Assembly: GCA_030604405.1 (NCBI GenBank)
Contig: JAUVVY010000030.1
Location: 1-50,073, forward strand
Source of the DNA: a bacterium
Lineage (GTDB): Bacteria > Armatimonadota > Zipacnadia > Zipacnadales > UBA11051
Reading direction: 5' to 3'
DNA: 50,073 nucleotides
Positions within the stretch are counted from its first letter, which is position 1. Every line of letters starts with the position of its first letter. The translations under genes were made by a program, and so were the position numbers. Positions 11,605 to 44,327 of this stretch are shown in pieces. The notes beneath the pieces were generated by a model. That model worked only from the letters and a program-made list of their open reading frames with translations. It did no database searches and was not told the origin of the DNA.

Positions 11605-11662
11605 ACTATTTGCAGCAGACGCGCCGCCAATGGCCTGCCCACTGACGTATAGACGCTGCCGA

Positions 11663-23741: not shown

Positions 23742-26700
23742 TCACGGCTCGATGTGGATAAGTTCGCTGCCATCTTCGTCATCATCGCCCGCCTGCAGCC
23801 AGCGTTCGAAAAGCTGCATGGCTTCCTCTCTCGGTATCGTGCGCCCAGACAGCAGCTCGCGGAGTTGCCCAAAATCTCTGCTCCTCAGCCTCTTACCGCT
23901 GAGCATTCTGTTGAGATGTGCGATCACCTCGTCGTTAAAAAGCGTCAGGATCAGGCGGGCATTGGCCTCGTCATCGAGATGTAGCACACGGTCCAGCCGC
24001 GCGGCCAGCTCCCCACGGTTAGGAAGCCCCGTCGCGTATTGGTGCAAGAGCCGGCTGAACTCGGCGGTCTTCATGGCCTGAATGTAAGCTCTGATGCCGG
24101 CTTGCGCAAGTTCTAGTATTTCCTCGGGCGGGACCAGGTCCGGCTCCACATCCAGACGCAGATGGCAGTTCGGACATACCGGCTGGCTGTCCAGAGCCGT
24201 ACCCAGCGCCTCGTAATCACAGCGGCGCTGCAATTCAGCTTCAAGGACCTCGAAAGCACGGCCAGGGTCTGCTTCGACCTTCAGGTCGAGCCTCTGCAAC
24301 TGAGCCAGAGCGCGCGGTTCGGGCGAGGCACGCAGCGTGCGGTAGCGCTCGAAGATAGAGGGGCGATTGCAGCGGCTGTGCCAGTTCAGATAGCGGCGTT
24401 TGTGAGTGGCCATGAAGATCTGGGCCAACCGCCCGAAGGCGCCGCTCTCGGTGATGATCTGCTCCCCCAATCCAATCAAGCTCAGCAGTCGCTGCTGTCG
24501 CGTGCGCAGATCGGCGTCGTTATCGAGGCACAGGCTGTCAGCCACCAGGTAGTCGCGCATGGCCACCACGCGGGCAGCAGTGTTCTGGAAGAAGTCCCAG
24601 ATGGCATCCACCTCCCGCAACAGGTGGGCCAGACGGGTCGGGCCGGCGTCTTGCTGCAGGAATCTCTGCGCTTCGTTGACCAGCTTCTTCAGGCCCTCGG
24701 CAGGCATCAGCGCCGGATCAATGATCTCGAAGAATTGCGCGAGCTCGTCCAGGGCCGCGTGCGCCTGCTGCCATTGCGACGGTGCCTGGCCGAGTGTTTC
24801 CTGGAGTTGACCCAGACGTGCTGTCATGGCAGCGATGCGCTTGAGGCTGAGTTCGCGGGCGCTCAGCAAGCCGGTGTAGATGGTGGTCTGGGTGGCATGG
24901 TCGGGCCTGGGCACCGAAGTATCGAGCACCATCTTGCTGAGGCGGGTGAGGCTGCGCCATTCGGCCATGCTGAGCAGCGGCGCGCGGGCCACCTGCTGCA
25001 CAGAGCTGCGCACCGGCCCTGCCAGGGCGTTGAACGCCAGCGAATTGCCATCCTGTCCAATGGCGACCAGCCAGCCGGTCTTGAGCAGACATGCCACCGT
25101 CAGCTCAAATATCTCCGGGGTCAGGCCGGCCGGCGATTTAGATAAATATGGCCCCAGGTCGCGGTAGGAGACGGGGCGGCCGCGCTCGGTCTGAGGCGTC
25201 GTGTCGCGCTGCCGGACCCGGTTCATGACCTCGGTGGCGGCCGGACTCTTGCCAACATCAATCAAGAGCGTATCCTCGTCACGGGCAACCAGCCCCAGCG
25301 GCCCCAGCACGTCCTCGGCCATCGCGGCCAAGTCCGGGTCGGCTTCGGCCGACAGAGCGCCAGGCCCGATCAGGCCCTCGACCAGCCGATCCACCATGCG
25401 GGTTCCCGACAGCAGCCGCCGTGGGGCGATGGCTGCAAAGTCGGGGAACAGGCGAGACAGTGACGTAGCGACGACCGCGGAGAGCAAGTCGGCCCAGGTT
25501 GCTGCGGCCTGCGCAGCAGCGTTCAGCGCCTGCTCGTGGCCCTCCGCTGTGATGGTGTATCCGTCCCTGTAGGCTTTGGCTACGATGCGGGCCACCTCCG
25601 GCTCCAGGGTGGCCGCCTCCTCGGCGATACGGTCGGCGACTTCGGGCTGCTCCTGGGCAGCCGATGGCTCACGCAGGATTTGCTGACACGCAGCCAACTG
25701 GCGTAACTTGTCGAATTCGGCCTCGGTCAGGGGCCGTGGCAGCCAGGCGATGAGGCCATCGGCAAAGGGCTGGCCGGACGCCGCCGCTGCCGCCTGGCGA
25801 AAAGCCTCCAGTTGCGCCTCCGGGGCCAGCAGTTCGGCGATGAATATGCGGCAGTCATATTCGCTTTCGATGCTTGCCAGTTCTGCGGCCTGCTCTTTGA
25901 GACCCTGGGCGGTGATGGTGGTAAGGTCGGCAGTTTCAACGGCCACAAAGCGGGCGGTGTTTTGCCAGATGACTTCAAGTACCTTGGCCTGGTCGAAATG
26001 TGCCAGCGGAAAATCAGGCCCGGAGGCAGCGGACCTGCCGGCGCGCCACAGCCGCGGATCAGATTCCAGAAGCCCGCTGCGCGCTGTCATCAGCCGGTGG
26101 CGAGCCAGTTCGCTGAGGTTTGTGTGGACGTCAATGATGTAGATATCCTCTGCAACACCGCCGCGCAAATCAACGTAGTTGCCACGCAGCCGCATCTGCT
26201 CCAACAGCTCGGCGGCTACGGTCGCGCTCACCAGCGGATTGGCCTGCTCGTCAAGCCCGATAAGCTCCACGATGCTGCCCACCGATGCCGGCGTGTTGGC
26301 CAGGCTAAGCAAGATGAGCGTCTTGGTGAGATACAGGACCGTCTCGGCGTGCTCGGGGGCGATGCGTGCTGCGTTCTTCTCGTAGTAGTCCAGCACTTCA
26401 CGGACGTAATCTGTGGCACGGGGGTGGGCGGCCAGCCGCGAACTGAGCAGGTCGAAGATGTCAGGCAACGATACCAGCAGGCGGAAATCGCGGTCCAGGC
26501 TGACAGTCCCGTCGCCGCGGCGTAGGATCTGCAAAAAGTCAACCAGCGCGTCGCCCTCGGCAAAGTACTTCTGATACACGTTCTCCAGCATCGGCTCGGC
26601 GGCGGGATGCAGCGGATAAGAGGCGGCCAGCTCGGCTTCCGTGAAGCTGGGCTCCCCGAAGGCCTGGCGGTAGGCCTGGCTGACCTGCTTGATTGCCGCC

Positions 26701-27749
26701 TCGAAGCCGCTCTCGTCAATGACTTTGATCGCACGGGCGTGCGCCACTCGTCGCATCGGCAAGGCGTCGAGGCGGTAGGTGGCCTCATAGCTGTCGCGGA
26801 TGCCGGCGAGGATGTACGGCTCGATGCCGCTGAGTTCCTCCAGACCCGCGCGCATTGTCAGCAGGAGGTAAAGGCGGTCGAGTTTAGTTCGCTGGCCCAG
26901 GAATTCCAGAAAGGCGATGTCACTGCGCACCGCCTTGTTGCCGGCGGCGGCCAGAAATTGCCACAGGTCGTCAATGAGCCACACGATGCCGGAGACATCC
27001 CGGTTCTGGATGACCTCCGAGAGCCGGGCCATGCGTTCGACGCGGCTCTGGCGGAAATCAAGCGGATAGCCGATGCTCTGGGCGAAGCTCTGGGCCGCCG
27101 TAACCGCAGCCGCCCGGTCGCGCTTGACCAGGTCCTGCCAACTGCGGCAGCCCCCGTACCGTTCGCTGACATGCTCATCGAGCTGCGGTTGGTAGCGGGG
27201 CAAGATGTGGCGGTCAATCAGGTCCAGCGCGTAGGACTGCTCGGATAGCGGCACCTGAATCTTGTAGCGGGGCCGACGTAGTTCCTGCTCCACGCAGTCG
27301 AATATGATGTCTTCGAGGTGCTCGTCTTCGGCGCGGTGCTCCTGCAGCGCCACCGGCACCACCAGCGGCGCGGGCTTGCGGTCCAAGCGGTGCAAGACCT
27401 CCTCGAACTCCGGATGCGTCCGGACAAAGAGTTCGCGCAACGGCTGGTACTCCAAGAGCAGCGCCGCCACGCATAGAAGATGGGTCTTGCCCGACCCGGC
27501 AGGCCCCTGCACCATGAACCCGGCACCGGTGGTCAGGTCCGAGACCAAATGCTCGAACAGATTGTACAGCGGGTCGTGATCCGGCTCCGCCACGGGCAGA
27601 TACTCGGATAAGATCTCACCGAGGTCGGTAGCCGTCAGCAGGCTGGGGGCACCGCCCTCGGCGTCGAGGCTATCCCGTATCTGCCGCAGGTTCGCCAGGT
27701 CGAGAGCCCGTGCCATTTCTCGGATTTCTACCAGGTCTGCGATCCTCAT
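23742..27749 (-). CDS. Large P-loop ATPase, BrxC/PglY (DUF6079)-like
   Basis: 1335 residues. An N-terminal STAND/Orc-like ATPase: Walker A GPAGSGKTHLL (82-92), Walker B IVWLIDDLWQFL (about 255-266) and a sensor-like LYLLLTMRAGLEEL (about 293-306). A long, mostly helical region of about 850 residues follows without recognised enzyme motifs. Near the C-terminus is a cysteine cluster, RRCDYEAL...VCPNCH, that could bind zinc. Size and order resemble the ATPases BrxC and PglY of BREX phage defence and proteins I recall as DUF6079; this is memory, not a search. No PglZ, PglX or BrxL gene is next to it, so it is not a standard BREX locus. It is divergent from hicB-hicA with promoters back to back (27827-27890). 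The ribosome site before its ATG is weak. Confidence 0.75.
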   Translation of the reverse strand: MRIADLVEIREMARALDLANLRQIRDSLDAEGGAPSLLTATDLGEILSEYLPVAEPDHDPLYNLFEHLVSDLTTGAGFMVQGPAGSGKTHLLCVAALLLEYQPLRELFVRTHPEFEEVLHRLDRKPAPLVVPVALQEHRAEDEHLEDIIFDCVEQELRRPRYKIQVPLSEQSYALDLIDRHILPRYQPQLDEHVSERYGGCRSWQDLVKRDRAAAVTAAQSFAQSIGYPLDFRQSRVERMARLSEVIQNRDVSGIVWLIDDLWQFLAAAGNKAVRSDIAFLEFLGQRTKLDRLYLLLTMRAGLEELSGIEPYILAGIRDSYEATYRLDALPMRRVAHARAIKVIDESGFEAAIKQVSQAYRQAFGEPSFTEAELAASYPLHPAAEPMLENVYQKYFAEGDALVDFLQILRRGDGTVSLDRDFRLLVSLPDIFDLLSSRLAAHPRATDYVREVLDYYEKNAARIAPEHAETVLYLTKTLILLSLANTPASVGSIVELIGLDEQANPLVSATVAAELLEQMRLRGNYVDLRGGVAEDIYIIDVHTNLSELARHRLMTARSGLLESDPRLWRAGRSAASGPDFPLAHFDQAKVLEVIWQNTARFVAVETADLTTITAQGLKEQAAELASIESEYDCRIFIAELLAPEAQLEAFRQAAAAASGQPFADGLIAWLPRPLTEAEFDKLRQLAACQQILREPSAAQEQPEVADRIAEEAATLEPEVARIVAKAYRDGYTITAEGHEQALNAAAQAAATWADLLSAVVATSLSRLFPDFAAIAPRRLLSGTRMVDRLVEGLIGPGALSAEADPDLAAMAEDVLGPLGLVARDEDTLLIDVGKSPAATEVMNRVRQRDTTPQTERGRPVSYRDLGPYLSKSPAGLTPEIFELTVACLLKTGWLVAIGQDGNSLAFNALAGPVRSSVQQVARAPLLSMAEWRSLTRLSKMVLDTSVPRPDHATQTTIYTGLLSARELSLKRIAAMTARLGQLQETLGQAPSQWQQAHAALDELAQFFEIIDPALMPAEGLKKLVNEAQRFLQQDAGPTRLAHLLREVDAIWDFFQNTAARVVAMRDYLVADSLCLDNDADLRTRQQRLLSLIGLGEQIITESGAFGRLAQIFMATHKRRYLNWHSRCNRPSIFERYRTLRASPEPRALAQLQRLDLKVEADPGRAFEVLEAELQRRCDYEALGTALDSQPVCPNCHLRLDVEPDLVPPEEILELAQAGIRAYIQAMKTAEFSRLLHQYATGLPNRGELAARLDRVLHLDDEANARLILTLFNDEVIAHLNRMLSGKRLRSRDFGQLRELLSGRTIPREEAMQLFERWLQAGDDDEDGSELIHIEP

Positions 27750-27991: not shown

Positions 27992-28094
27992 GGTGCGGTG
28001 GCCTGCACTAGCTTGCTGAGGCCGTTAAAGACAGGCTCGTAGAAAAGATAATTACGCATGGTATCAGGTCCCCCAGTCAATGGAGGGAATGGCG

Positions 28095-28361
28095 ATGACC
28101 TATACAGTGGTGGTACTCAAGGAGAAGGACGGGCGCTATTCGCTAATTGTGCCGGCACTCAGCGGCTGTGCCACTTGGGCAGAGACATTGCCGGACGCCC
28201 TGCGCATGGCGGAGGAAGCAATCCTGGCCCATATTGACGGCTTGGAGGAGCTTGAAAAACCTATTCCCCCTGATGTGGAGATTATTACGTTTGAACTCGG
28301 TGAAGCGACAGAAGCCGCCGTTTACAAAGTGACGATTGAGGAGGCGGCTGTAGTTGCCTAA
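28095..28361 (+). CDS. hicB: HicB-family antitoxin
   Basis: 88 residues. Degenerate RNase H-like HicB fold: MTYTVVVLKEKDGRYSLIVP, then LSGCATWAETLPDALRMAEE, the standard core. It should bind and block HicA. It lacks the C-terminal ribbon-helix-helix or HTH found in many HicBs, so autoregulation by direct DNA binding is not evident. In-frame ATGs at 28080 and 28089 are possible, but GGAGGG (28082-28087) is seven bases before the ATG at 28095. The order is antitoxin first, the reverse of the E. coli hicAB operon but common elsewhere. Confidence 0.92.
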   Translation: MTYTVVVLKEKDGRYSLIVPALSGCATWAETLPDALRMAEEAILAHIDGLEELEKPIPPDVEIITFELGEATEAAVYKVTIEEAAVVA

Positions 28362-28584
28362 GCTCCCGGTAGTATCGGGGCGGGAGTTGATCAAGGCGCT
28401 CGAGCGGGCCGGCTTCGAGTTCCTCAGACAGCGCGGCAGTCATGTTACCATGGTTAATCGCGACAAGGGCCGCACCGCTGTCGTCCCGGTGCACAGCAAC
28501 AAGGACCTGCCCAAAGGCACCCTTGCCCACATTCTGCGAGGCAGTGGCCTGACCGGTGGAGACTTGCGACGACTGCTCAAATAG
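28354..28584 (+). CDS. hicA: HicA-family mRNA-interferase toxin
   Basis: 76 residues, dsRBD-like HicA fold that cleaves mRNA independently of the ribosome. The N-terminal VVSGRELIKALERAGFEFLRQ, the catalytic RGSH with His30, the KGRTAVVPVH strand and the C-terminal LRGSGLTGGDLRRLL are all present, so the toxin appears intact. The start is a TTG at 28354, overlapping the hicB stop by eight bases, with GAGGAGG (28339-28345) eight bases upstream: tight translational coupling. Confidence 0.93.
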   Translation: MPKLPVVSGRELIKALERAGFEFLRQRGSHVTMVNRDKGRTAVVPVHSNKDLPKGTLAHILRGSGLTGGDLRRLLK

Positions 28585-29843: not shown

Positions 29844-29871
29844 CCGAGGGCGACTCACTGCTCCTCGGTTT
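29844..29871 (+). terminator. Weak terminator candidate after trpS
   Basis: CCGAGG (29844-29849) and CCTCGG (29863-29868) with a 13-base loop, then TTTC. It overlaps the 3' end of the convergent gene; the short T-run makes it doubtful. Confidence 0.3.
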
Positions 29872-30799
29872 CTTCCTCATCTTCACGGTGGAATGTGATG
29901 CCGCTTACGTTTTCGGCGCGGATCCAGTCTTCCTCGATTGAGATGACCGCCTTAGGGCTGTGGAATTCGTCCCCCTCGTCGGTCTTCAGCCGCACGTTTC
30001 CTGTCAACGTAATCTCATCCGGGATCCGTTCATATACCGCCTGGTCCGCCCACGCGGTCTTGTCTTCCTGAACGGCCTTGACATTGCCGGTGGCGATGCC
30101 TTTTTTCACATCGTCGTCGTAGTAGTATTCGACCTTCTCACAAGTGATCGTGGTCAGCTTCCTGGCATAGTCCTCGAGACGCTCCGGTTCCTTGTCATCT
30201 TCTTTCTTGTCCTCGGGCTCGCCGCCCTTTTCCTCCGCCGGCTTTTCTTCTCCCTGCGCTTCCTCGCTGGTGCCCTCTGCTTCCTCCTCGTCCTTCTTCT
30301 GGGCGACGATGCGGACGTTTGCGGTGATGACGGCGAGCTTTGCATCGAAATCAATAGCAATCAAGTCGCCGGTGATGGTCGCTTCAGGGTCCACGATCTT
30401 CAGGTTGCCTACACACTTAGCAGTGTCCGGTTTGTCGGGATGGTCTTCGTCGTAGTACTCGGCCTCGTCGCAGTACAACACCACGTCCTTGTGGCTGAAC
30501 CTGACGTTGCCCTTGAGGTAGTAGGTGTGGGCGGCCTTGTCGCGGAACATGTCGTCGGCCCATTCCAGCCGGACGCGCTCGTCTTCGTCGTCACCCTCCC
30601 TGGTGGATTCGGCCCTGGCAGGCTGCTTTTCGGCCTCTGCCTTATCCTCGTCCGCCGGCTTATCGGCGGCGGCCTTCTCAGCTTGTTTATCGGCCTGCTT
30701 ATTCGGCTGGTTCTCAACTTGCTGCGACCACGCCAAGGCGAATATGCCCAGCATGCCGACTACCAGCAAAGCCGCCAGCAGTTGATTGTGCGATCGCAT
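29855..30799 (-). CDS. LptA/OstA-like periplasmic protein
   Basis: 314 residues. Signal peptide (hydrophobic LLAALLVVGMLGIFALAW), then a charged Lys/Glu/Ala linker, then two blocks of OstA/LptA-like short beta repeats: YYLKGNVRFSHKDVVLYCDE and EATITGDLIAIDFD, and after a second acidic linker KGIATGNVKAVQEDKTAWAD and ITLTGNVRLKTDEGDEFHSP. In LPS export LptA forms the periplasmic bridge between LptC and LptD. The acidic insert of about 50 residues between the blocks is unusual. GGGAG lies ten bases before the ATG. Last gene of the six-gene envelope operon, directly after the LptC-like gene, which supports the assignment. Confidence 0.8.
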   Translation of the reverse strand: MRSHNQLLAALLVVGMLGIFALAWSQQVENQPNKQADKQAEKAAADKPADEDKAEAEKQPARAESTREGDDEDERVRLEWADDMFRDKAAHTYYLKGNVRFSHKDVVLYCDEAEYYDEDHPDKPDTAKCVGNLKIVDPEATITGDLIAIDFDAKLAVITANVRIVAQKKDEEEAEGTSEEAQGEEKPAEEKGGEPEDKKEDDKEPERLEDYARKLTTITCEKVEYYYDDDVKKGIATGNVKAVQEDKTAWADQAVYERIPDEITLTGNVRLKTDEGDEFHSPKAVISIEEDWIRAENVSGITFHREDEEETEEQ

Positions 30800-30851
30800 C
30801 TGACGTCATCTCCCAAGCTGGTCAAGCCGGTGTCAAGGCTCCTGCTAGCAT

Positions 30852-31532
30852 CTATCTGCCAAGCGTCTCACGCACGGTCTCGGGATGGAATATCGCCTGC
30901 ACACGCTGCAGGGAGAAATCCTCGGACTTGACGTTATACGTAAGACCCTTGCCAATGAGGGTATTGTTCCCGACGGTCATCTGCACCTTCGCGGCAGACT
31001 TTACCAGGTTCTGGGCCACGTAGAACTCGCAGGAGTTAGCCCGGATCACGGTATCCTTGTTGCGCATGGTGACCTGGCGAGGGCAGACCAGCTTCTGCTC
31101 GTCCTGGACCCACTTGATGGTGCTGGTATCAAACACAGCGCCTTCCGGCGATACCGCGCGGACGTTGCCGGTGACCTCCAGGTCCCGGCTGCGGGTGTTG
31201 CCGGTGACCCGGTCGGCGGTCAGGCGCACCATCGGCTTGCCGCTCTTATCATATATAAGCGCTTCTCTGACGCCCTGGGCGGCGACACTCCCGCCACCGC
31301 TTCGCAACTCGATCTTATCCAGCTTGACCTGCCAGGCGGTGCGCCCACCCGGACTATGCCTTACAGTTGTCTCGCTGATTACCGCCGCGCCAGGGGAGGT
31401 GGGTGGTGCGATCGCTTGCCCATTTGCATCCCGGGAACCCTCACCGACGTATTGCGCAGTCAGCCAGTAGCCCACAACAGCCGCCAACAGCGCCAACGCT
31501 ACCGCAAGACTCAGGCGGAGATGTTTGCTCAC
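30852..31532 (-). CDS. LptC-like protein, LPS export
   Basis: 226 residues from a GTG at 31532, beginning with a single membrane helix (LRLSLAVALALLAAVVGYWL) followed by a periplasmic beta domain of LptC/LptA type: LTADRVTGNTRSRDLEVTGN, STIKWVQDEQKLVCPRQV and TLIGKGLTYNVKSEDFSLQR. LptC hands lipopolysaccharide from the LptBFG transporter to LptA. The frame is open back to a TTG at 31628, adding 32 residues without clear function; neither start has a strong ribosome site. Its place just before the LptA-like gene is the classical order. No lptB is in the window. Confidence 0.8.
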   Translation of the reverse strand: MSKHLRLSLAVALALLAAVVGYWLTAQYVGEGSRDANGQAIAPPTSPGAAVISETTVRHSPGGRTAWQVKLDKIELRSGGGSVAAQGVREALIYDKSGKPMVRLTADRVTGNTRSRDLEVTGNVRAVSPEGAVFDTSTIKWVQDEQKLVCPRQVTMRNKDTVIRANSCEFYVAQNLVKSAAKVQMTVGNNTLIGKGLTYNVKSEDFSLQRVQAIFHPETVRETLGR

Positions 31533-31652
31533 GAGCCTGCTACCCGACTTCCGATGAGTGAAATGGGAAACCGGACCGACTGCGGCTTCGGCGACAGGCA
31601 GCTCAGTCCGGTCAATAGGCGGGCACAAAACGGCGGCAGTGTCACCACAGCG

Positions 31653-32261
31653 TCAGTCAGAAAGCGGCCCGATGGGTGGGCCGGTCGTCACAGCAATGTC
31701 TGCCGTCACTTCGCGCAATGAGATGACCATAACAGAGCCCGTGCCGAATTTGCTGCCGGTTGAGGCGGTGACGGTGCGCTGTCCCATCGGCACGTTGTAA
31801 AGCGTGTAGGTGCCGTCAGCGTGGGTCACGGCGGTGTTGCCTCCCACCCATACCTTCGCACCTTGCACCGGCGCGCCGGCGTCGGCCACAATGCCGACGA
31901 TGTTGCCATAGCCGGGAAGGGTGACAGGCTTCATGTAGAAAGTGCCGATATCCTTCACGCCCGCACCGGCAGGGACGGCGCGCTGCTCGACTGCATAGCC
32001 ATCGGCGACCGCATAAAGGGTAGTCGCGCCGCTATGTCCCAACTCCAGTGCGAACGTCCCATCCGCGCCCGTTGTGGTGACCACTCTGTTGTCGGTCACC
32101 TGCAGGTCCGCCACTGGGCGGTGATCGCTGTCATGGAGGACGGTTCCGGTAACGGTTGCCGTGAGCGCTTTGCCTCCACCACATCCTGTTACTGCAATGA
32201 CGGCCGTGATTACCACGACTGCAAATGCGATGTGAGCCTTGCTTGTCAAGTACTTGCGCAC
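31653..32261 (-). CDS. Lipoprotein with carboxypeptidase-regulatory-like domains
   Basis: 202 residues. N-terminal lipoprotein signal ending in a lipobox (VIAVTGC, then GGG), followed by two beta-sandwich domains of carboxypeptidase-regulatory/Ig-like type: TVTGTVLHDSDHRPVADLQV with TTTGADGTFALEL, and NIVGIVADAGAPVQGAKVWV with HADGTYTLYNVPMG. Such domains serve binding or structure at the cell surface. The GTG at 32261 follows GGGAGG at eight bases and starts exactly at the signal peptide; the frame is open to 32342. Fourth gene of the envelope operon, related to the next gene upstream. Confidence 0.8.
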   Translation of the reverse strand: MRKYLTSKAHIAFAVVVITAVIAVTGCGGGKALTATVTGTVLHDSDHRPVADLQVTDNRVVTTTGADGTFALELGHSGATTLYAVADGYAVEQRAVPAGAGVKDIGTFYMKPVTLPGYGNIVGIVADAGAPVQGAKVWVGGNTAVTHADGTYTLYNVPMGQRTVTASTGSKFGTGSVMVISLREVTADIAVTTGPPIGPLSD

Positions 32262-32386
32262 TTTTCTGGCCTCCCTGGCTACGGTTAAGGTATGCGACCA
32301 GTTTACCACAAATCCAACTTCTATCTCAATAGGCTGCCGCATAAAGGCGGCGCAATTCTATCTCGCAGCGCTGACTGGCAGTGTTC

Positions 32387-33580
32387 TCACGAGACAGTCA
32401 GCGTGAAATCTATTCCCGAAAGCTTCTGCCCACCGCCCGGCAGGGTCACGCTGCGGCTGATCGAGCGGGCCTCGTAGCGGACCGTTATCTGATACGTTCC
32501 CGGCAGCACAAAGACTGAATAATTGCCCGCGGCGTCCGTGGTGGTCTCGGCGGCGACATGGCCGTTGATTTCGTCGAACACTTCCACTTCCGCAGCGGCG
32601 TTGTCGGGCGCGCCAACGAGCGTGACCACACCGCGGATTGTGTAGGGTTCCGTGGGTGGCTCTGCCGCAGACTCGTTCATTTGCACCAGCAGCGGACTCA
32701 TCCCGGGCATAACCCCTATATTCTCGCGATAATCGTCATAACCGGTCGCTTTGACGAGCAGGGCGCGCTCGCCGACGAATACATCCGGAATCGAGAAGCT
32801 GCCATTGGTATCGGTCTGCACGGACGGCAGATCGGCAATTGTGACCTCGGCTCCTGCTATCGGCTGCTGGGTGAATACGTCAACCACGCGGCCGGTGACA
32901 GTGATACGGGTCTCGCCGGCGATAAGTTGAAAGTCGAGCCGCTGCGGCTCCTCGCTGCCGACGGCCTGGGCGACATTGGTCACCACTGATGTGGTCAGGT
33001 AGTCGGTGGCGGAGGCCGTGACTTCCACTCTACCGATCGGTATCCCGCCGACTATGTAGTATCCGTCGCTGTCGGTGTAGCCATTGACGATAATCGGCTC
33101 GCCGCCGATCTGCTCGTATTCAAATGAAACTGCGGCGGAAGTGAGCGGCTCGCTTGTTGTCTCATTCGTGACGTAGCCGGCAACGATGCCGGTTCTTTCC
33201 AGGTCAGTCGCTGCCATCTCGACGGTGACGAAAGTGGCGGTGGTCATTGATATCTGTATCGGGTAGGCCTCGGTGACGTAGCCGCGGCTGGTCACTGCCA
33301 GCGGCTGAGTGGGTGGTGTGGCGGTTCCGAAGGGCACATTGCGCAGGACCACACTACCCTCTGCGACGGTGACAGTGCCGCGCACTCCGCCGACGACAGC
33401 GGTGGCCTCTACATCGAGGAAATCCTGCGTTTCCGCATCAATGACTCCGACCACCACGATAGCAGCGGTGGGTTCCGGGGGCACATCGTCGCCCACGCCA
33501 CCACAGCCGCAGATGAGGACGACAGACAGCGCCGCCCATCCGATGGCGATAAGAGTCCCTCTCGTTGGCCTGACGATCAT
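32387..33580 (-). CDS. Lipoprotein with about four carboxypeptidase-regulatory-like domains
   Basis: 397 residues. Signal peptide with lipobox (ALSVVLICGC, then GG), then a chain of repeated beta-sandwich domains with the G-x-V-x-D/N...G-A-x-V and DG-x-Y/F-x-I motifs: VVGVIDAETQDFLDVEATAV, VAGYVTNETTSEPLTSAAVS with DSDGYYIVGG, VTGRVVDVFTQQPIAGAEVT with DTNGSFSIPD, and IRGVVTLVGAPDNAAAEVEV with DAAGNYSVFV. Expected on the outer membrane. The ATG at 33580 begins the signal peptide; the frame is open to 33754. It lies 13 bases after the large secreted protein gene. Confidence 0.82.
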   Translation of the reverse strand: MIVRPTRGTLIAIGWAALSVVLICGCGGVGDDVPPEPTAAIVVVGVIDAETQDFLDVEATAVVGGVRGTVTVAEGSVVLRNVPFGTATPPTQPLAVTSRGYVTEAYPIQISMTTATFVTVEMAATDLERTGIVAGYVTNETTSEPLTSAAVSFEYEQIGGEPIIVNGYTDSDGYYIVGGIPIGRVEVTASATDYLTTSVVTNVAQAVGSEEPQRLDFQLIAGETRITVTGRVVDVFTQQPIAGAEVTIADLPSVQTDTNGSFSIPDVFVGERALLVKATGYDDYRENIGVMPGMSPLLVQMNESAAEPPTEPYTIRGVVTLVGAPDNAAAEVEVFDEINGHVAAETTTDAAGNYSVFVLPGTYQITVRYEARSISRSVTLPGGGQKLSGIDFTLTVS

Positions 33581-33593
33581 TTGGATCCCGTTT

Positions 33594-36584
33594 CTAGCGC
33601 TGCAGTTGCATGGCCCGCAGCGTGCTGACCTGCTGCCCGTCTTCGGCGCGCGCGGAAAGCTGTATGAGATAAGTCCCGGCCGGCACCAGGCTGCCGGTGG
33701 CGTTGCGCATATTCCACACGGCATTGCAGGTACCGGCGGAGCGGATTTCGTCACAAGCCACGATTGCCACGGTGCGGCCGGCGATATTCAGCACGCTGAC
33801 GCTGACCGCCGCCGACTTGCTGAGAGTGTAGGTTATCGCCACACTCGCGCCGGCCCGGGCGGCGTCAAGCGAGGTCACAGCCAGCAGATCGGCCGAATTG
33901 TCGCCGATCACGATTGCAAGATTGCGGACGCCGCCGTTGCTACCCGTCCGAAAGCTGAATTGGGTTGTAGTGCGCATGTACTGCCTCCGGCCAGTGTCGC
34001 GGTCAATCAGTACCGGACGCACGTCAGTGGGCAGGCCGCGCAGATCAGGCCAGCTCAGCGTCACTTCCGCGTCCGGCAGCGAACTTGACGCCTGCAGCTC
34101 CCATCGCTGCGGCCAGACTTCGCCTCGCACATCGGTCATGTACACAGCGCCGGCTGCAGAGCTTTGGGGCTGGACGAAGCGCACCTTTACGCACGGGCCG
34201 AAGTCTGGCGGCGCGGTGATATCGAAGGCCGCATCCGCGCTAGCTGTGGCCTGCGGAGCCACTCCCAGGTAGGCCGCGATGCTGTGCAGCGGCCCTGCTC
34301 TGACCACCAGCGGCAGCTTCCACGTGAGCCCAGCATCTGCCGCAGCCGCAGTCGAAACAGACTCCGCAGTCGCAACTGGAAAGTCCACGTAGAGGCCCGG
34401 AGAGCGCAGCACCCGCAGCCAGTAGCCGGCGAAAGTCTCAAGCTGCTCCACGGTGTCGTAGCCAGCCTGCTGCTCGTAGGCGAAGACCCCCTGCTGCACC
34501 CAGCCGTTGTCAACCGCATCGAGGAACGTGGCCGGCTCCTGCTCGCCAAACTGCACGGTCAGGCCCTCCACGTTGATCGGGTCGAGTCGCGGGCTCCCGA
34601 TGATGTTCCAGCCGATTGGCAGATAGACGCGAGTTGGCTCGTCCTCGGCAGGCAGGACCCCGAAAGTCTGCATATTGGTGTCTTCGAATATCTTCAGCCA
34701 GAAGCCGCGCCCGGGCACAAAAGGCCTCACGTCCGGCCAGATGGTGTACTTGTCCTCGCCTTCCAGCGTTGGATCCCATTCCGCCATCAGCAGCCGCTGT
34801 GGCGCTATGCCCAGGATGTTGGGTGCGCCGTTTGTTACCGGCCACACCGGCATGGAGATCATGTGCAGGCCGGTTGCGCCCTCGAGGAATGTATGGCTCA
34901 CGCGGGCCTGCTCAGCGCCGTGGATGAAGGTTGCATAAGAGTCCCAGCCCACGTTGTACTTGCGGGTGACGGTCTGGCCGAGTTTGTTCTGGAATCGTAT
35001 TTCCAGTTGCATCGGGCTGAGCGGGACGGCAGTGATCCTGTCGCTCCACACGCCGCGACTGACCTCCAGGTCGCTTATGCCGTCCCCGCCCGTGACATCT
35101 ATGGTGCCCTCCGCATTGCCAATGATAGCGCCATAGAGGTTATTTTCCCCGGCCTCAAAGCCGCGTTGCTGATAGGGATAGGGGTAGCGGCGGAAAAGGC
35201 TCGCGGCGTCCACATCCACCGTTACCCGCTGGGGGCCACCGATGTTGTAGAATGTCGGCAACAGAAAGCCCTCGCCCGCCGATGGGCCGCCGGAGGGAAT
35301 GTCAATGATGTAGCCTTCCTCGGCGTACAGTTTGACGGCGAAATCGTAGCTCCAGTAGGTGGTGCGAGCCTGGGCGCCCATCGGCTCCTCATCGCCGTCG
35401 GGCAGCGTCGTGTAAAGCTCGGCGATCAGCGCCACCGAAATTTCCAGAGGTATATTCCAAACATACAGCTTGGGGCCGAGATGAACGCTGGTGTCGAGCA
35501 CATACTGGCCCTTGAACCAGTCGAAGAAGCTCTGGCCCTCGACCTCCGGTAGCACGCCGGCGGCTAGCACCTTCAAAGCCGGCACGTCGCCGGGAAGGCC
35601 CGCGTCAAAACTGTTGTAATAGACCTGGTTGAAGTTGCCAAAAAACCGGTCGTCTTCGATGTAGCATTTCAGCCACGCCGCTCGCGCCATCGCAATCCGC
35701 CACACCAGCATGTTGGTAACCCCGGACACCGGATAGTATGTCGCATTGGCCAGCTCGGGTTGATTCTCCGGCTCATAGACAGACAGGCAGTAGAACGGCC
35801 CGGGATCTATGGGGTCGTAGCCGGGGGAGACACCCGGGGTGGTCTGCACCGCATAAGCCGCCGCGCCGGTAAAGCCCTGCTCCCAGGCATCGTAGAAGAG
35901 TGTCGCGTCATCATGGAAGGCACTGAGCACCAGCATGATCAGCACATAGGTGTCTTCCGGGAAGTTGCCGGAAAGCGGCGGGATGCGGATCTCGTTGGTG
36001 GTCACATCGTACGTGCCGCCCTGGATGTTCTGCAGCGAGTCGTCCTGAATTACGTTGACGGTGATATCGAAGGCGGGCGCGCCGTAGATCAGGCGGGCCT
36101 TGGGCATCGCGCGATCCAGGTAGCTGCGCAGGGCCGTCTCATCCTGACTTGAAAAGTTCTCAAACACGAACTCGATATCGTTAGTGGGCGCGCCGATTTG
36201 CTGGCCGCGCACGATGGCGGCTTCCAGGTCCGGCAGCACCATGCGGTTGTTCTGCAGATGCACGACCGTGCGAGGGAAGCGCACCTCGGCGCGAGGGCCA
36301 ACCAGGCCATGCCGCTTCATCCACTCCAGGGTTGCCCGGGTGCCTTGCAGAGCCAGTGGGGAGTGCTGGCTTGCTACCGCCGAGCGGACAGCAGCGGTGC
36401 TGACCATGCCAGGTCTTGGTTCAGAAACTACGATCGCGCCCTGGGGGCCGTTGGCGACGCTTGCAAACGGCACATCCAGGACGTTACCGAAGGGATTGGT
36501 CGCGGCGACAGCACTAGCGGCTGCGACCGTGGCCGCGCAAATAGCGATCAGCAATATTCGTATTCTGCTGTAGCCAGAGCTCAT
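33594..36584 (-). CDS. Large secreted protein with C-terminal FlgD/T9SS-like sorting domain
   Basis: 996 residues. Signal peptide (RIRILLIAICAATVAAASAVAA) and a mature protein I do not recognise, rich in aromatic residues and Pro. The last 80 residues are a clear FlgD-Ig/T9SS type-A-like domain: ITYTLSKSAAVSVSVLNIAG, then AGTCNAVWNMRNATGSLVPA, then GTYLIQLSARAEDGQQVS and a basic end. In Bacteroidota such C-terminal domains direct export through the type IX system. No peptidase or glycosidase motif was found (there is no HExxH). The ATG at 36584 has GGAG eight bases upstream and begins the signal peptide. It is 29 bases from the barrel gene and shares its transcript. Confidence 0.8.
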   Translation of the reverse strand: MSSGYSRIRILLIAICAATVAAASAVAATNPFGNVLDVPFASVANGPQGAIVVSEPRPGMVSTAAVRSAVASQHSPLALQGTRATLEWMKRHGLVGPRAEVRFPRTVVHLQNNRMVLPDLEAAIVRGQQIGAPTNDIEFVFENFSSQDETALRSYLDRAMPKARLIYGAPAFDITVNVIQDDSLQNIQGGTYDVTTNEIRIPPLSGNFPEDTYVLIMLVLSAFHDDATLFYDAWEQGFTGAAAYAVQTTPGVSPGYDPIDPGPFYCLSVYEPENQPELANATYYPVSGVTNMLVWRIAMARAAWLKCYIEDDRFFGNFNQVYYNSFDAGLPGDVPALKVLAAGVLPEVEGQSFFDWFKGQYVLDTSVHLGPKLYVWNIPLEISVALIAELYTTLPDGDEEPMGAQARTTYWSYDFAVKLYAEEGYIIDIPSGGPSAGEGFLLPTFYNIGGPQRVTVDVDAASLFRRYPYPYQQRGFEAGENNLYGAIIGNAEGTIDVTGGDGISDLEVSRGVWSDRITAVPLSPMQLEIRFQNKLGQTVTRKYNVGWDSYATFIHGAEQARVSHTFLEGATGLHMISMPVWPVTNGAPNILGIAPQRLLMAEWDPTLEGEDKYTIWPDVRPFVPGRGFWLKIFEDTNMQTFGVLPAEDEPTRVYLPIGWNIIGSPRLDPINVEGLTVQFGEQEPATFLDAVDNGWVQQGVFAYEQQAGYDTVEQLETFAGYWLRVLRSPGLYVDFPVATAESVSTAAAADAGLTWKLPLVVRAGPLHSIAAYLGVAPQATASADAAFDITAPPDFGPCVKVRFVQPQSSAAGAVYMTDVRGEVWPQRWELQASSSLPDAEVTLSWPDLRGLPTDVRPVLIDRDTGRRQYMRTTTQFSFRTGSNGGVRNLAIVIGDNSADLLAVTSLDAARAGASVAITYTLSKSAAVSVSVLNIAGRTVAIVACDEIRSAGTCNAVWNMRNATGSLVPAGTYLIQLSARAEDGQQVSTLRAMQLQR

Positions 36585-36613
36585 CTGCACGCTCCGCTGC
36601 TTGCCGAGTCTTC

Positions 36614-39600
36614 TTAGAAATCGGTATCCAACATGTACTCCGACCAAAGCTCCCAGGAATCTTCCGCCGACAGCCACGGGGGCAGACCGGCATCGAAGTC
36701 CCTTCGAGCCTGTGGCGCTTCGCCGGGGCCGGTGCCAGGCGGCCGCTCTTCGCGTGGGCGTTCAAAGCCCGGCCGCTCCAGGCTCTGCCGGGCTCTATCG
36801 GCTCGAAAATCCCCCAGCCCTGCATCAAGGCCCCCGCGTCCCGGCTGACGGTACTGTGACGGCACCTCGCCCGGCACCTGGTCGGCGCGCCAGGCGTCCT
36901 CATATTCGCCGCGCTCCCGGTAAGACCCCGTGCCCTCGAAGATGCCGTATCCGGGGAGCCGACTAATCTCGTCAGTGGCAGCGCCACGCCGCAGGTTATC
37001 AAACGCCCCGTAGCCAGTACCATAGATCCCGGTCGCACCGCCGCCGCCGTACCCGCCATACCCACCATACCCGCCATAGCCTCCGCCGGCACGGTAGCCG
37101 CCGAAACTGCGCAGACCGTAGCCTGCGGAGCCCGCATAGCCGGTGTAAAGCCGCGACGGGCTGCCGCCGAGGCCGCTGTAGAAGTTCGTCGTGAGGGTGA
37201 GCATGAAGGTGTTGGCAACGTAATTCTGGCTGGGTGGCGTGAGGCTGGTATAGCCAAGGCGCGGGTCCTGCGGCAGACGCGAGGTGTTGCGGATGTAGCG
37301 GTAGCCGAAAGCGAGTGTGGCCAGGTCGCTCAACCTACGCTGGTACTGCAGTTCCAGGTTCTGCTTCCTGAAATCGGCATAGCCGCCGATAAAGTCAGAC
37401 AGCCCCATACGCAGGGCCAGACTGGAGTTGTCGTCGAGCCGATAGCTGAAGTAGGACTGGACATCGAACAGGTCGTTGTCCACCATGAACATCTTCTGCG
37501 CCTCGCCAAACCCGAGATAAGTGGGGCTGGAGCCGGTTTGCAGGTTTAGACTCAGCCCGGCGGTATACGGCTTTTCTCGAGGCTGGTAGTTGACGCCCAG
37601 CGATACCATGCGGTTGCTTATCGAGCCGCGGCCCTCCTGCAGGAAGTTCATGCTGTCAGTCCCATACATGAGGTTGAGACCCCACTCATCACTGGCCCGG
37701 TAGTTCACGGACAGATTCCTGGTGTTCTGGTCGCTGTCAGCCAGGTAGCCGACGCTGCCGCCGCTAGTATATTTGCGCCTCCCCAGCAGCAGGTCGAGCG
37801 TCATCTTGTCGGTGGGGCGGTAAGAGATGCGGAACTGTGAGCTGGTATCCTGGTATTTGTCAGTTCTGTCTTCGGCGTCCTCGTCATCATCGTAGTCGGG
37901 CGGGGTATAGCCGCCACCGCCGCCACCAATCCCGCCGAAGCCGGGACTATATCCGCTGTACCCACCGTAGAAACTGACCCGACCAGTGGACTCGGCGATC
38001 CTATGGTCAAGGTTAATGTCGAGATTCTCGCGTGGCGACCAGCGGAGCCCAAGCTGGGTGGTGTCGGAGGTGGAGCTGCGCTCATCGAAGGCCGAAGTGG
38101 ATTTATTGCTGCCGAGACTCGCGGAAAGGGAAAGCGAGGAGCCTACCTGATACTGGCCCGACAGATCGAAGCGTTCGGTGGTGCTGCCGCGGCGATCTTC
38201 ATCTTCACCAGTGCCGAAGTAATCCTGCGTCGTTTCCTGGATAGCGGAGGAAAGCGAATACCGCCCGCCCGAGGGTGAGTACTGCAGGCGGATCTGGTCG
38301 GAGGTCATTTCGCTGTCTCCGCCGCTGCCGCCGGTGTTGCTCATCTGCTGGCGCGAGAACTGTGCCTTCGGCCAGCCTGGAAAGTCCAGGTCCACGTCGT
38401 ATTCGCGGCGCTGGGCGGATACGTCAAGCGCTGTCGCCGACTCGCCGAATTGCGTGGTACCCACGCCATACGGGTTGCTGTAGCCCCCGTAGCCGCCATA
38501 ACTACCGTAGCTGTCGGAACCGCTCCCAAAGCCAATGCCGCCGCCGTAGGAGCTGTAGCCGTAAGAATAACCTGACGAGCTGTCCATGTCGGAGAAGCGG
38601 CTGTAGAGTCGAATGTGCTCGTGCGGCTGCCATCTGACCCCGACATCCGCGCCCTTCTCCTGGCGGTAGAAGCCCACCGCATTGAGGTAGCTGAAATCCG
38701 GCTCGATATCGCGCCATGAGACCAGGACATTCAAACGGGGACGCGAGTAGTCGAGGTTGACCTGCATGGCGTCGCCCTGCCCGCCATTTTGGCCTCCCTC
38801 GCTGCGGCCGTAGTCCGCACGCAGCGATAGATCGTCGTTGATTCGGTAGCTCAGGTCAATACCGGTCACCGATTGACTGCCGGTGGGGTAATCGCTGGTG
38901 AGATCGTAGTAGTAGCGGATTAGCACCAGCGCCGTGGGCGGTACGGCGCGGCGGAAGATGATGCGGCCGATCTGCCGGTAGGAGTCGTAATCCACGCCCT
39001 CGGCTTGCTCCGCATTATCCACCAGCACCAACAGCGCCTGATCAATGGTCTTTGTCTCGCCCTTGTAAATGACCTCAGTGCCGTTGGCGATGATCGGCCG
39101 GAAGATGGTGTCAAAGGGGCCCGTGGAGCCGGAGCCCTGATAGATATCTTCCTGATAGCCGACGGTGTCGGCCCTCGGCGTATCCCTGTCCTGACGCACA
39201 TGGGCAACGCCCAGTAGCAGTCTGTTACCCAGCAGCGGCATCTCGGCCCGAAAACCGGACAGGGTGCCGGCGCTGGCGCCGTAGCCGTAGGACTGGTAGC
39301 TTACCGAGATTATCGAGGTGTCGGGGATGATCCGGGGCGGTTTGTCAACCGGCTCGAAGTGCAACTGGCCGTTCTGGTAATCGAGGATGTAATCCTGTCC
39401 GAACTTCTGCACCTCTTCGTTGACCTTCACCGCCTCGGAGCCGTCAATCACGGGCGTGTAGGTCAGGAAGTAGGGCCCCGAGGTGTTGTTGCCCGCGAAG
39501 GTCTGGTTGCGGGTAAGCCCCTTCTCTTTAGAGTAGAAGGCGCGCACCAGGCCCTCGTTGGGCAGACTTTGGTCGAGCTGATAACCCTTCAGTGGCTTGC

Positions 39601-40045
39601 TGAATGATACGAACTCGTTGCCGGGCAGGCTGACGTTGAGGTCGCCGAAGAAGAGCTGGGTATCGTGGCCGGCATAGCCTACGATCCAGCGCGAATAGCT
39701 TGGCCCATAGCCACTGGATGACAGGTCGGCCTGAAAGGCAAACTCCTTCCAGATAGGCCCGCTCAAGTGCAGGCTGGTCTGCCGCACCAGGTCGCCGGTG
39801 TCCCAGCGCTGGTTCTCGTAAGCCGTCAGGGCCCCGTCAACAGACTGTTTCTGGAAGGTAAGTCGGTTCTGGCCGGTGACTTCGAGGCCCTGGAAAAGCT
39901 CCCAGCGTTTGAAAGCCTCCCGGATACTGTCCATCAAGCTGGCGCGTGCAATGCCGCTCTGGCTGACGACCAGGGCGGCGAGTAAAGCTAGAACCAGTGC
40001 GGCTCTTGTGCGGTACCAGTGCTCCCGATCAGCGGGTTGCTTCAT
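36614..40045 (-). CDS. Very long outer-membrane beta-barrel protein with SprA-like motifs
   Basis: 1143 residues. Signal peptide (AALVLALLAALVVSQSGIARA), then long stretches of alternating amphipathic strands ending in aromatic residues, typical of an outer-membrane barrel (LSLRADYGRSEGG, LDLLLGRRKYTSGG, LATLAFGYRYIRNTS). Two copies of a G-x-DY...G-x-I/L-x-F-x-x-P motif occur: GQDYILDYQNGQLHFEP (about 220) and GVDYDSYRQIGRIIFRRA (about 350), a pattern I associate with SprA-type translocons and related long barrels. Gly/Tyr/Ser low-complexity loops lie around 490-525, 700-720 and 985-1005 (GGYGGYGGYGGYGGGG). The soluble Arg/Pro/Glu-rich C-terminus is unusual, as most barrels end in a strand. 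First gene of the envelope operon. Confidence 0.75.
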   Translation of the reverse strand: MKQPADREHWYRTRAALVLALLAALVVSQSGIARASLMDSIREAFKRWELFQGLEVTGQNRLTFQKQSVDGALTAYENQRWDTGDLVRQTSLHLSGPIWKEFAFQADLSSSGYGPSYSRWIVGYAGHDTQLFFGDLNVSLPGNEFVSFSKPLKGYQLDQSLPNEGLVRAFYSKEKGLTRNQTFAGNNTSGPYFLTYTPVIDGSEAVKVNEEVQKFGQDYILDYQNGQLHFEPVDKPPRIIPDTSIISVSYQSYGYGASAGTLSGFRAEMPLLGNRLLLGVAHVRQDRDTPRADTVGYQEDIYQGSGSTGPFDTIFRPIIANGTEVIYKGETKTIDQALLVLVDNAEQAEGVDYDSYRQIGRIIFRRAVPPTALVLIRYYYDLTSDYPTGSQSVTGIDLSYRINDDLSLRADYGRSEGGQNGGQGDAMQVNLDYSRPRLNVLVSWRDIEPDFSYLNAVGFYRQEKGADVGVRWQPHEHIRLYSRFSDMDSSSGYSYGYSSYGGGIGFGSGSDSYGSYGGYGGYSNPYGVGTTQFGESATALDVSAQRREYDVDLDFPGWPKAQFSRQQMSNTGGSGGDSEMTSDQIRLQYSPSGGRYSLSSAIQETTQDYFGTGEDEDRRGSTTERFDLSGQYQVGSSLSLSASLGSNKSTSAFDERSSTSDTTQLGLRWSPRENLDINLDHRIAESTGRVSFYGGYSGYSPGFGGIGGGGGGYTPPDYDDDEDAEDRTDKYQDTSSQFRISYRPTDKMTLDLLLGRRKYTSGGSVGYLADSDQNTRNLSVNYRASDEWGLNLMYGTDSMNFLQEGRGSISNRMVSLGVNYQPREKPYTAGLSLNLQTGSSPTYLGFGEAQKMFMVDNDLFDVQSYFSYRLDDNSSLALRMGLSDFIGGYADFRKQNLELQYQRRLSDLATLAFGYRYIRNTSRLPQDPRLGYTSLTPPSQNYVANTFMLTLTTNFYSGLGGSPSRLYTGYAGSAGYGLRSFGGYRAGGGYGGYGGYGGYGGGGATGIYGTGYGAFDNLRRGAATDEISRLPGYGIFEGTGSYRERGEYEDAWRADQVPGEVPSQYRQPGRGGLDAGLGDFRADRARQSLERPGFERPREERPPGTGPGEAPQARRDFDAGLPPWLSAEDSWELWSEYMLDTDF

Positions 40046-42370: not shown

Positions 42371-42449
42371 GCTGCGCCTGGAACCTATGTACAGGCCCCA
42401 AATCACCACTCATGCGTGAGCTTGTTATCGTCCATTGCGATTTCTAGTT

Positions 42450-44327
42450 ATGAAGCGTTCGCATTTAGTCGGATATCTGTTCGTGCTGCCGGCGCTGCTG
42501 GTATTCGCGGCGTATGTCGCGTACCCGCTGCTGCATACCGTGCTGCTGTCCGCCTACTCCTGGAGCCCGGTCAATCCGGTCAAGGTCTATCGCGGGCTGG
42601 GCAATTTCGCCGAGCTCTTCCAGGATCCCAACTTCGGCGTGGCGCTGCGCAACAACACCTACTTCATCGCCCTGTCACTGGCCGTGCAATTGCCCCTGGC
42701 GCTGCTGCTGGGGGTCGGTCTCAACTCCACGCTGCGCCGGCATCATATCCTGCGCACGATCTTCTTCTCCCCCTTTGTGGTCCCGGTCGTGGCCGTCGGG
42801 CTGGTCTGGCAGCTTATCTACGAGCCGAATTTCGGCGCACTCAACGCGCTGCTTGAGGCGGTCGGCCTCGATACGCTGACCATCGGCTGGCTCGGCGGCC
42901 CCGTCGTGGCGATCTTTGCAATAATCGCAGTGTCCTGCTGGCGCTACACCGGCTTTCACATGATGATTCTGCTGGCAGGCCTGCAGGCGATCCCTGACGA
43001 GCTTTACGAGGCCGCGCGCATTGACGGCGCCAGCGGCTGGCAGCAGTTCGTGCATATTACTCTGCCGTCGCTGCGGCGAATCCTGCTGGTGGATGCGCTG
43101 CTGATTACGGTCGGCTCGGTGAAGATATTTGACCTGGTGCAGGTGATGACTGCGGGCGGACCGGGCTATGCATCTGACGTGCTGGCAACATTCATGTACA
43201 AGTCGGCGTTCACTTTCGACCGGATGGGCTATTCAGCGGCCATCGCAGTTATCATGCTGGTGCTGACGCTGCTGCTGACCGTGGTGTATATCCGGCTGAC
43301 AAGCCGCGAGGAATCTACACCTGGCAGCGCCGGACACAGGCGCTATCTTGCGGCCACAATAGTCGCAGGCCTGGCACTGGTAATCGTGCTCGTGGCGTAT
43401 TACCGGGGTTGGACATCGGCGGGCAGGCACGCAGCCTTCATTGCAGGGCTGGCGGCGGCGGTCGTGCTGTTGTGCGGGCTTATCCGCAGCCTCAGTAATC
43501 TCATTGAACTGCTGCCGCGACGAGTCGTAGCCGGCGTACGGGACGCTGCACTTGGCATTGTTGCGACGATATTCTTCCTGCCGATTCTGTGGTCGCTGCT
43601 GAGTGCGCTGAAGCCGCACAATGAGCTTTTGCTCAGCCCCTGGTCGCTGCCGCAGCACTGGGCATGGGAGAATTTTGCCGCGGCCTGGAAAAGTGGCGTC
43701 GGGCTATTCTTCCTCAACAGCGTCGCGGTCACCACGGTGGCGGTCCTCGTGATGCTGGCGCTGGCGGCACCGACGGCGTATGCGCTGGCGAGGCTGCGTC
43801 TGTGGGGCGGGCCGGTGATCTTCGGCCTGATACTCGGAGGGCTGCTGGTACCCGTTCATGCCGCGCTGCTGCCGCTCTACCAGCTTAACAACAGTCTCGG
43901 CATCACCGATTATGCGGCGATTCTCGGCCCCTACATCGCCTTTTGCATTCCGCTATCGGTGCTGCTGCTGCGCGCATATTTCGCCGGCGTGCCGCAGGAA
44001 CTGATGGATGCGGCGCAGATGGACGGGGCAAGCCATCTGCGGATTCTATGGTCGGTCTTTGTGCCGATAGCACGCCCGGCGCTGGCGACAGTGGCGATCT
44101 TTCAGGCCGCATGGGTATGGAACGAGCTGCTGTTTGCGCTGGTGTTTATCGTGAACAAGTCGCACATGACGCTGCCCGTGGGCCTGCTGACCTTCCAGGG
44201 GGAACACTCGACCAACTGGGCAGTGGTGATGGCCGGGGTGGTGATGACGATTGTGCCGGTGCTGGCGCTGTACTTCATCTTCCAGCGCCACGTGGTCAAG
44301 GGCCTCACCGCCGGCGCGGTGAGGTAG
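42450..44327 (+). CDS. Fused ABC sugar permease (MalF-type joined to MalG-type)
   Basis: 625 residues containing two complete binding-protein-dependent permease domains that are normally separate proteins of about 290. The first (about 1-285) is UgpA/MalF-like: GYLFVLPALLVFAAYVAYPL at the start and EAA loop EAARIDGASGWQQFVHITLP (about 187). The second (about 350-625) is UgpE/MalG-like: FFLPILWSLLSALKPHNELL, then EAA loop MDAAQMDGASHLRILWSVFV (about 519) and NWAVVMAGVVMTIVPVL. The linker carries extra hydrophobic segments (AATIVAGLALVIVLVAYYRG, AAFIAGLAAAVVLLCGLI). One reading frame, no stop, so the fusion is real in this sequence. No ATPase subunit is nearby; a shared MsmX-like ATPase elsewhere is likely. 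The ATG at 42450 begins the first domain; the ribosome site is weak. Confidence 0.93.
   Translation: MKRSHLVGYLFVLPALLVFAAYVAYPLLHTVLLSAYSWSPVNPVKVYRGLGNFAELFQDPNFGVALRNNTYFIALSLAVQLPLALLLGVGLNSTLRRHHILRTIFFSPFVVPVVAVGLVWQLIYEPNFGALNALLEAVGLDTLTIGWLGGPVVAIFAIIAVSCWRYTGFHMMILLAGLQAIPDELYEAARIDGASGWQQFVHITLPSLRRILLVDALLITVGSVKIFDLVQVMTAGGPGYASDVLATFMYKSAFTFDRMGYSAAIAVIMLVLTLLLTVVYIRLTSREESTPGSAGHRRYLAATIVAGLALVIVLVAYYRGWTSAGRHAAFIAGLAAAVVLLCGLIRSLSNLIELLPRRVVAGVRDAALGIVATIFFLPILWSLLSALKPHNELLLSPWSLPQHWAWENFAAAWKSGVGLFFLNSVAVTTVAVLVMLALAAPTAYALARLRLWGGPVIFGLILGGLLVPVHAALLPLYQLNNSLGITDYAAILGPYIAFCIPLSVLLLRAYFAGVPQELMDAAQMDGASHLRILWSVFVPIARPALATVAIFQAAWVWNELLFALVFIVNKSHMTLPVGLLTFQGEHSTNWAVVMAGVVMTIVPVLALYFIFQRHVVKGLTAGAVR

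Follow-up and report, generated by a model that had tools for sequence, protein, structure and literature searches.

Organization of the operon

The window, meaning the whole stretch of DNA analysed here (50,073 nucleotides), is an entire contig (C10) of a 4.37 Mb genome in 96 contigs. Six genes lie on its minus strand, from 40045 to 29855, and the operon is convergent with trpS. The gaps between them measure 29, 13, 125, 120, and 52 bp. There are no internal stops, and all six genes show coding signal when scored against antisense ORFs. The initial annotation had described six same-strand genes with short gaps, and the measurements bear it out. In order, they encode a 1143-aa barrel protein, a 996-aa protein with a FlgD_ig domain, two CarboxypepD_reg lipoproteins, LptC, and LptA. 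Four starts were refined. The FlgD_ig gene begins at 36584, the first lipoprotein at 33580, the second at 32261 (GTG), and LptC at 31532 (GTG).

The two lipoproteins had been proposed as carboxypeptidase-regulatory-like. Indeed, CP1 (397 aa; 32387..33580, minus strand) and CP2 (202 aa; 31653..32261, minus strand) have CarboxypepD_reg domains behind lipobox-like N-termini. The lipobox of CP2 reads VTGC. CP1 is kept in most loci having the FlgD_ig gene.

Outside the operon, a single 630-aa ORF (42435-44327) looks as if two sugar ABC permeases had been fused. These permeases are separate genes (271 and 291 aa) in related loci, for example, L045, L050, and L051. Two small overlapping ORFs (28080-28584) look like a HicB-HicA toxin-antitoxin pair, judging by sequence only. 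Finally, a 1335-aa P-loop ATPase-like protein (23742-27749) has weak matches to NCBIfam models of the BrxC/Avs2 type.

The barrel and its SprA-type domains

The first gene (36614..40045, minus strand) encodes a predicted giant outer-membrane β-barrel protein with an N-terminal signal peptide. The AF2 model, based on 43 sequences, has about 36-37 long transmembrane strands in residues 55-957, counted from the predicted secondary structure (pLDDT mostly 80-95). With about 36 strands, the predicted structure is that of a giant barrel and not of an ordinary porin. Its β-signal ends at Phe955, and the C-terminal residue occupies that position in most relatives outside the class. Residues 959-1143 form a Gly-rich disordered tail. 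The tail past the β-signal Phe (36617-37170) is a Gly/Tyr-rich low-complexity stretch, found in the order and class and not in deeper relatives.

The two SprA-like motifs announced in the initial annotation are both present, the first with Leu replacing Ile. GxDY motif 1 is GQDYILDYQNGQLHF (residues 216-230) and motif 2 is GVDYDSYRQIGRIIF (residues 350-364). The barrel has exactly two motifs. When the protein was shuffled 5000 times, at least one appeared in just 18 of the shuffled sequences. They sit in two insertions of about 70 aa. The first SprA-type domain (residues ~185-257; 39274..39493, minus strand) lies between transmembrane strands 7 and 8. The second (residues ~303-385; 38891..39139, minus strand) lies between strands 11 and 12.

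A profile of the GxDY domain was compared with the PDB. Its best match is SprA (6h3i, E = 1e-6, residues 696-748), with a weaker second copy at 421-467. Likewise, 12 of 14 members of the domain match TIGR04189, the SprA model. The profile also matches phage tail proteins more weakly, so the domain is not unique to SprA. Searched against the 101 genomes of the phylum, the SprA model matches mostly operon-type barrels, mainly at model positions 590-690, and always below the cut-off. Full-length SprA/Sov (TIGR04189, cut-off 200 bits) is over the cut-off in 0 of 101 genomes; the domain of about 90 aa alone matches. In the T9SS structure, the cargo CTD contacts Q452 of SprA and the SprA cap, and the SprA barrel has 36 strands (PMC10994853). 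Q452 falls inside the weaker GxDY copy, a coincidence of positions in the alignment that is only suggestive of a relevance to tag contact.

Within its own genome, the operon barrel is the sole match to the barrel query. In a genome of family f13, two further SprA-domain proteins of about 1164 and 667 aa (L174:5624-9118 and 10183-12186) are close together and apart from the operon barrel.

Foldseek searches with the barrel model return giant barrels, namely SlpA, MtrB, LptD, and SprA (6h3j, E 5e-7). The best match corresponds to SlpA/SDBC chains. The TM-scores are low (0.1-0.3), and therefore the fold alone gives the barrel no family. The match of the predicted fold is to a giant barrel, not to SprA in particular. 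A whole-barrel profile against PDB sequences gave nothing useful. The protein has no match in Pfam or NCBIfam, hence no SLH and no OstA/LptD_N domain. A coiled-coil domain was not found either.

The top rank of the SlpA/SDBC chains speaks for a structural or nutrient-uptake complex as in Deinococcus. It would be formed by the barrel, the dead-peptidase protein, and the lipoproteins, and the tags would be handled by another translocon. As with the SlpA/SDBC and OmpM tethers, one chain forms a giant barrel here, and the host is a deep-branching diderm. SlpA is a barrel of 30 strands (PMC9388160). However, the operon barrel lacks SLH and coiled coil, its inserted domains match SprA and not SlpA, and the tag described below follows the barrel across the phylum. 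We consider this complex unlikely.

Conservation across Armatimonadota

Of the 101 Armatimonadota genomes, 83 contain a barrel homolog; in a few of these, the match is at motif level and to the shared domain only. The close relatives come from Armatimonadota, Candidatus Zipacnadia, and candidate division WS1 records, in line with an organism from the class Ca. Zipacnadia of Armatimonadota. Beyond Armatimonadota, the matches are at motif level only (Neomarinimicrobiota, Eisenbacteria, Gemmatimonadetes).

We read 39 neighbourhoods, using codon-usage gene calls plus six-frame HMM searches, and counted by hand. The FlgD_ig gene adjoins the barrel in 31 of them, and this order of genes recurs across the phylum. 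LptC and/or LptA follow the barrel genes in 14 of 39 loci, from nine families. In about 15 of 39 loci, outside the order, CsaB (PF04230) is immediately upstream, usually with a DUF5693 protein. CsaB is a pyruvyltransferase tied to pyruvylated wall polymers bound by SLH proteins. Its upstream position in many deeper lineages gives an indirect connection with the SlpA/OmpM tethers, and it counts in favour of the structural or uptake complex.

The conservation is not uniform. Families f3 and f6 keep the barrel, the FlgD_ig protein, and CP1, and LptC/LptA are absent from the locus. The second lipoprotein is also lost in some families. These losses, together with those of the tag, would fit a chance neighbourhood of unrelated envelope genes on one transcript, with no common pathway. 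Nevertheless, the barrel and the FlgD_ig gene stay together in many families whose proteins share 20-50% identity. This makes mere chance a very improbable explanation.

The adjacent FlgD_ig protein

The second gene (33594..36584, minus strand) encodes a predicted secreted multi-domain protein. According to AF2 (pLDDT 87), Foldseek, and Pfam, it consists of a signal peptide, a degenerate gluzincin (M1/thermolysin-like), Ig-like domains, and a C-terminal FlgD_ig. Part of it resembles M1 aminopeptidases (Foldseek prob 1.00). Each of the 24 orthologs that can be aligned at the HExxH position has a degenerate form of the motif (HQxxH, HLxxH, or first His missing). Further downstream, all but one retain the E of the W-E-x-G stretch. 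An active peptidase is ruled out, with HExxH in 0 of 24 orthologs aligned at that position. A C25 sortase domain was sought in the protein and gave no match.

The FlgD_ig domain is gone and the remainder kept in at least seven orthologs, among them several of family f3 and L058 of family f1. The initial annotation considered this protein a sorting-domain substrate. That label is doubtful because of the orthologs without tag, and the idea of a pure cargo is weakened. Since the tag is lost while the rest is kept in some lineages, the protein probably serves as a component and not just as cargo, by analogy with PorU/PorZ in T9SS. A core that persists without its tag is also what the structural or uptake complex would lead us to expect.

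The FlgD_ig tag and its co-distribution with the barrel

The proposed sorting signal is the C-terminal FlgD_ig with its terminal Arg (33594..33857, minus strand). The FlgD/T9SS-like ending attributed to the second gene is confirmed by PF13860, with 28 bits over a cut-off of 27. If the domain is a tag, other proteins should carry it. The genome has eight further proteins with FlgD_ig, always at the extreme C-terminus. The nine proteins end 15-19 residues past the domain, and eight of them have a terminal Arg. Tagged proteins include three subtilases, adhesin-like giants, and a β-propeller giant.

In barrel-bearing genomes, we sampled 38 FlgD_ig proteins from 14 families. The domain is C-terminal in 38/38 and the Arg end is present in 34/38; these 38 are high-scoring matches, and just the nine of the own genome form an unselected set. 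Pooled, FlgD_ig is the last domain in 47/47 and the terminal Arg appears in 42/47. The background of terminal Arg is 12.6% of 597 genes.

On the other hand, FlgD_ig is C-terminal in only 2/29 proteins from genomes without a detected full-length barrel (f12, f14, f15, f26, f30), where "without" means none detected in a single-sequence search, and f12 and f15 have motif-level matches. Per family, by hand tally, the domain is C-terminal in 14/14 with barrel vs 0/5 without. The median number of FlgD_ig proteins per genome is 6 with barrel vs 1 without (p = 3e-5, operon copy removed). Per-protein p-values overstate independence, the species being related.

The tags were compared with T9SS models (n = 22). 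Of these, 22 match PorU and 13 match Por_Secre_tail (TIGR04183) at E ≤ 0.01, and 13 match PorZ. They also match the PorU structure. The scores are better with FlgD models than with these three, and FlgD_ig is the best fit. In T9SS, secretion requires the last 13 residues of the tag and the lysines of motif E, and the distribution of the tag tracks the T9SS core (PMC10202324). The same pattern of co-distribution is seen here for the tag and the barrel.

The Lpt genes of the operon

The LptC/LptA pair is genuine, as the initial annotation stated. LptC (226 aa; 30852..31532, minus strand) has an N-terminal transmembrane anchor and is over the cut-offs of PF06835 and TIGR04409 (65 bits). LptA (314 aa; 29855..30799, minus strand) has a long acidic/Lys-rich insertion; it is over the cut-off of PF03968 and below that of TIGR03002. 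In L068:1226-2692 and L079:15965-17410 (families f29 and f21), LptC and LptA are apparently fused into proteins of about 480-490 aa.

The genome of the window has a complete Lpt set elsewhere: LptC-LptA-LptB-LptF on contig C6, and LptG beside a divergent LptD on contig C29. Therefore, the LptC and LptA of the operon are paralogs. The divergent LptD-like protein (L168:7614-10118, on C29) has 834 aa, adjoins the LptF/G gene, and has its own OstA domain. None of the 101 genomes has Pfam LptD or LptD_2 over the cut-off, and these models miss the divergent LptD found in 89 of 101 Armatimonadota. LpxC is present in 95 of 101 genomes of the phylum. A second, shorter LptD-like protein of about 500-650 aa occurs in G037:C106, G046:C23, L084:1387-2934, and other Armatimonadota genomes. 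We had considered the barrel as the missing LptD, and this candidate was dropped once the divergent LptD was found.

The operon could still be a second Lpt-type lipid route. Its LptC2 and LptA2 would bridge the periplasm to the barrel, and the barrel would insert a lipid or glycolipid in the outer leaflet. The position of the genuine paralogs directly behind the barrel genes, their fusion in two families, LptD among the Foldseek matches, and CsaB nearby in deeper lineages are consistent with this route. However, the divergent LptD already exists elsewhere, and the barrel lacks the OstA/LptD_N domain for LptA docking. LptC/LptA are missing at the locus in f3 and f6, and the tags are left unexplained. 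Accordingly, we regard a lipid route as improbable.

The export route linked to LPS transport, suggested in the initial annotation, stands in part. The barrel and tag portion withstood the tests made against it. The link to LPS transport is weaker, given the separate complete Lpt set, a barrel without the LptD periplasmic domain, and the families without LptC/LptA at the locus.

A candidate export pathway

Sequence comparison and predicted structures lead us to favour, with moderate confidence, a reading in which the locus would encode the outer-membrane portion of a pathway for protein export that is T9SS-like (SprA-like) and uses a C-terminal tag of its own. According to published accounts, T9SS does not extend beyond Bacteroidota or the FCB superphylum (PMC10202324, PMC11205867), and the locus is probably a route of protein export outside that range. 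Literature searches on Armatimonadetes turned up no report of T9SS or of CsaB.

We infer transport through the barrel, the tag as its signal, and the anchoring role as follows. The cargo would cross the inner membrane by Sec, bearing a C-terminal Ig-like tag (FlgD_ig fold, ...R-COOH). The barrel of about 36 strands would recognise the tag and release the cargo to the surface. The two SprA-type domains would form part of the barrel lumen or cap. The neighbour would bear the tag and, as a gluzincin-like component without catalytic activity, take the place that PorU/PorZ have in T9SS. The CarboxypepD_reg lipoproteins would be outer-membrane accessory subunits. Likewise, LptC/LptA, plus the upstream CsaB and DUF5693 in deeper lineages, would be accessory and may supply a surface glycan or glycolipid retaining the cargo. 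In P. gingivalis, the LPS machinery and PorZ bring the A-LPS to which the cargo becomes attached (PMC10202324). A comparable anchoring by LptC2/LptA2 and CsaB is offered here as a hypothesis, by analogy.

The likeness to T9SS SprA/Sov lies in the large predicted barrel with two GxDY domains in its N-terminal part, the Ig-like tags at the C-terminus of the cargo, whose last residue is basic, and the tag-bearing component. The differences are also clear. The Armatimonadota barrel has 1143 aa, under half of the 2403 aa of SprA. The locus lacks full SprA and GldM over the cut-offs; the GldM/PorM motor (PF12081) is over the cut-off in 0 of 101 genomes. For the tag, FlgD_ig is a better fit than Por_Secre_tail. 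Where T9SS has a C25 sortase, the associated protein here is a pseudo-peptidase of the gluzincin-like type. In addition, the barrel neighbours include LptC/LptA and CsaB/DUF5693. Full membership of T9SS is ruled out by the zero counts for full SprA and GldM.

These differences could instead reflect a separate secretion system, not T9SS. It would be a compact SprA-domain translocon without GldLM, recognising Arg-ended FlgD_ig tags. The neighbouring CsaB/DUF5693 and LptC/LptA proteins would make or deliver a glycan or glycolipid dedicated to retaining the cargo. We hold this version to be doubtful, although conceivable.

If the T9SS-like export pathway is true, tag-directed outer-membrane export would be older or more mobile than thought. 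The barrel would offer a short, motor-less comparison for SprA. A C-terminal FlgD_ig with an Arg end may serve as a predictor of the surface proteome. It would also explain the surface placement of subtilases and adhesin-like proteins in the little-studied Armatimonadota.
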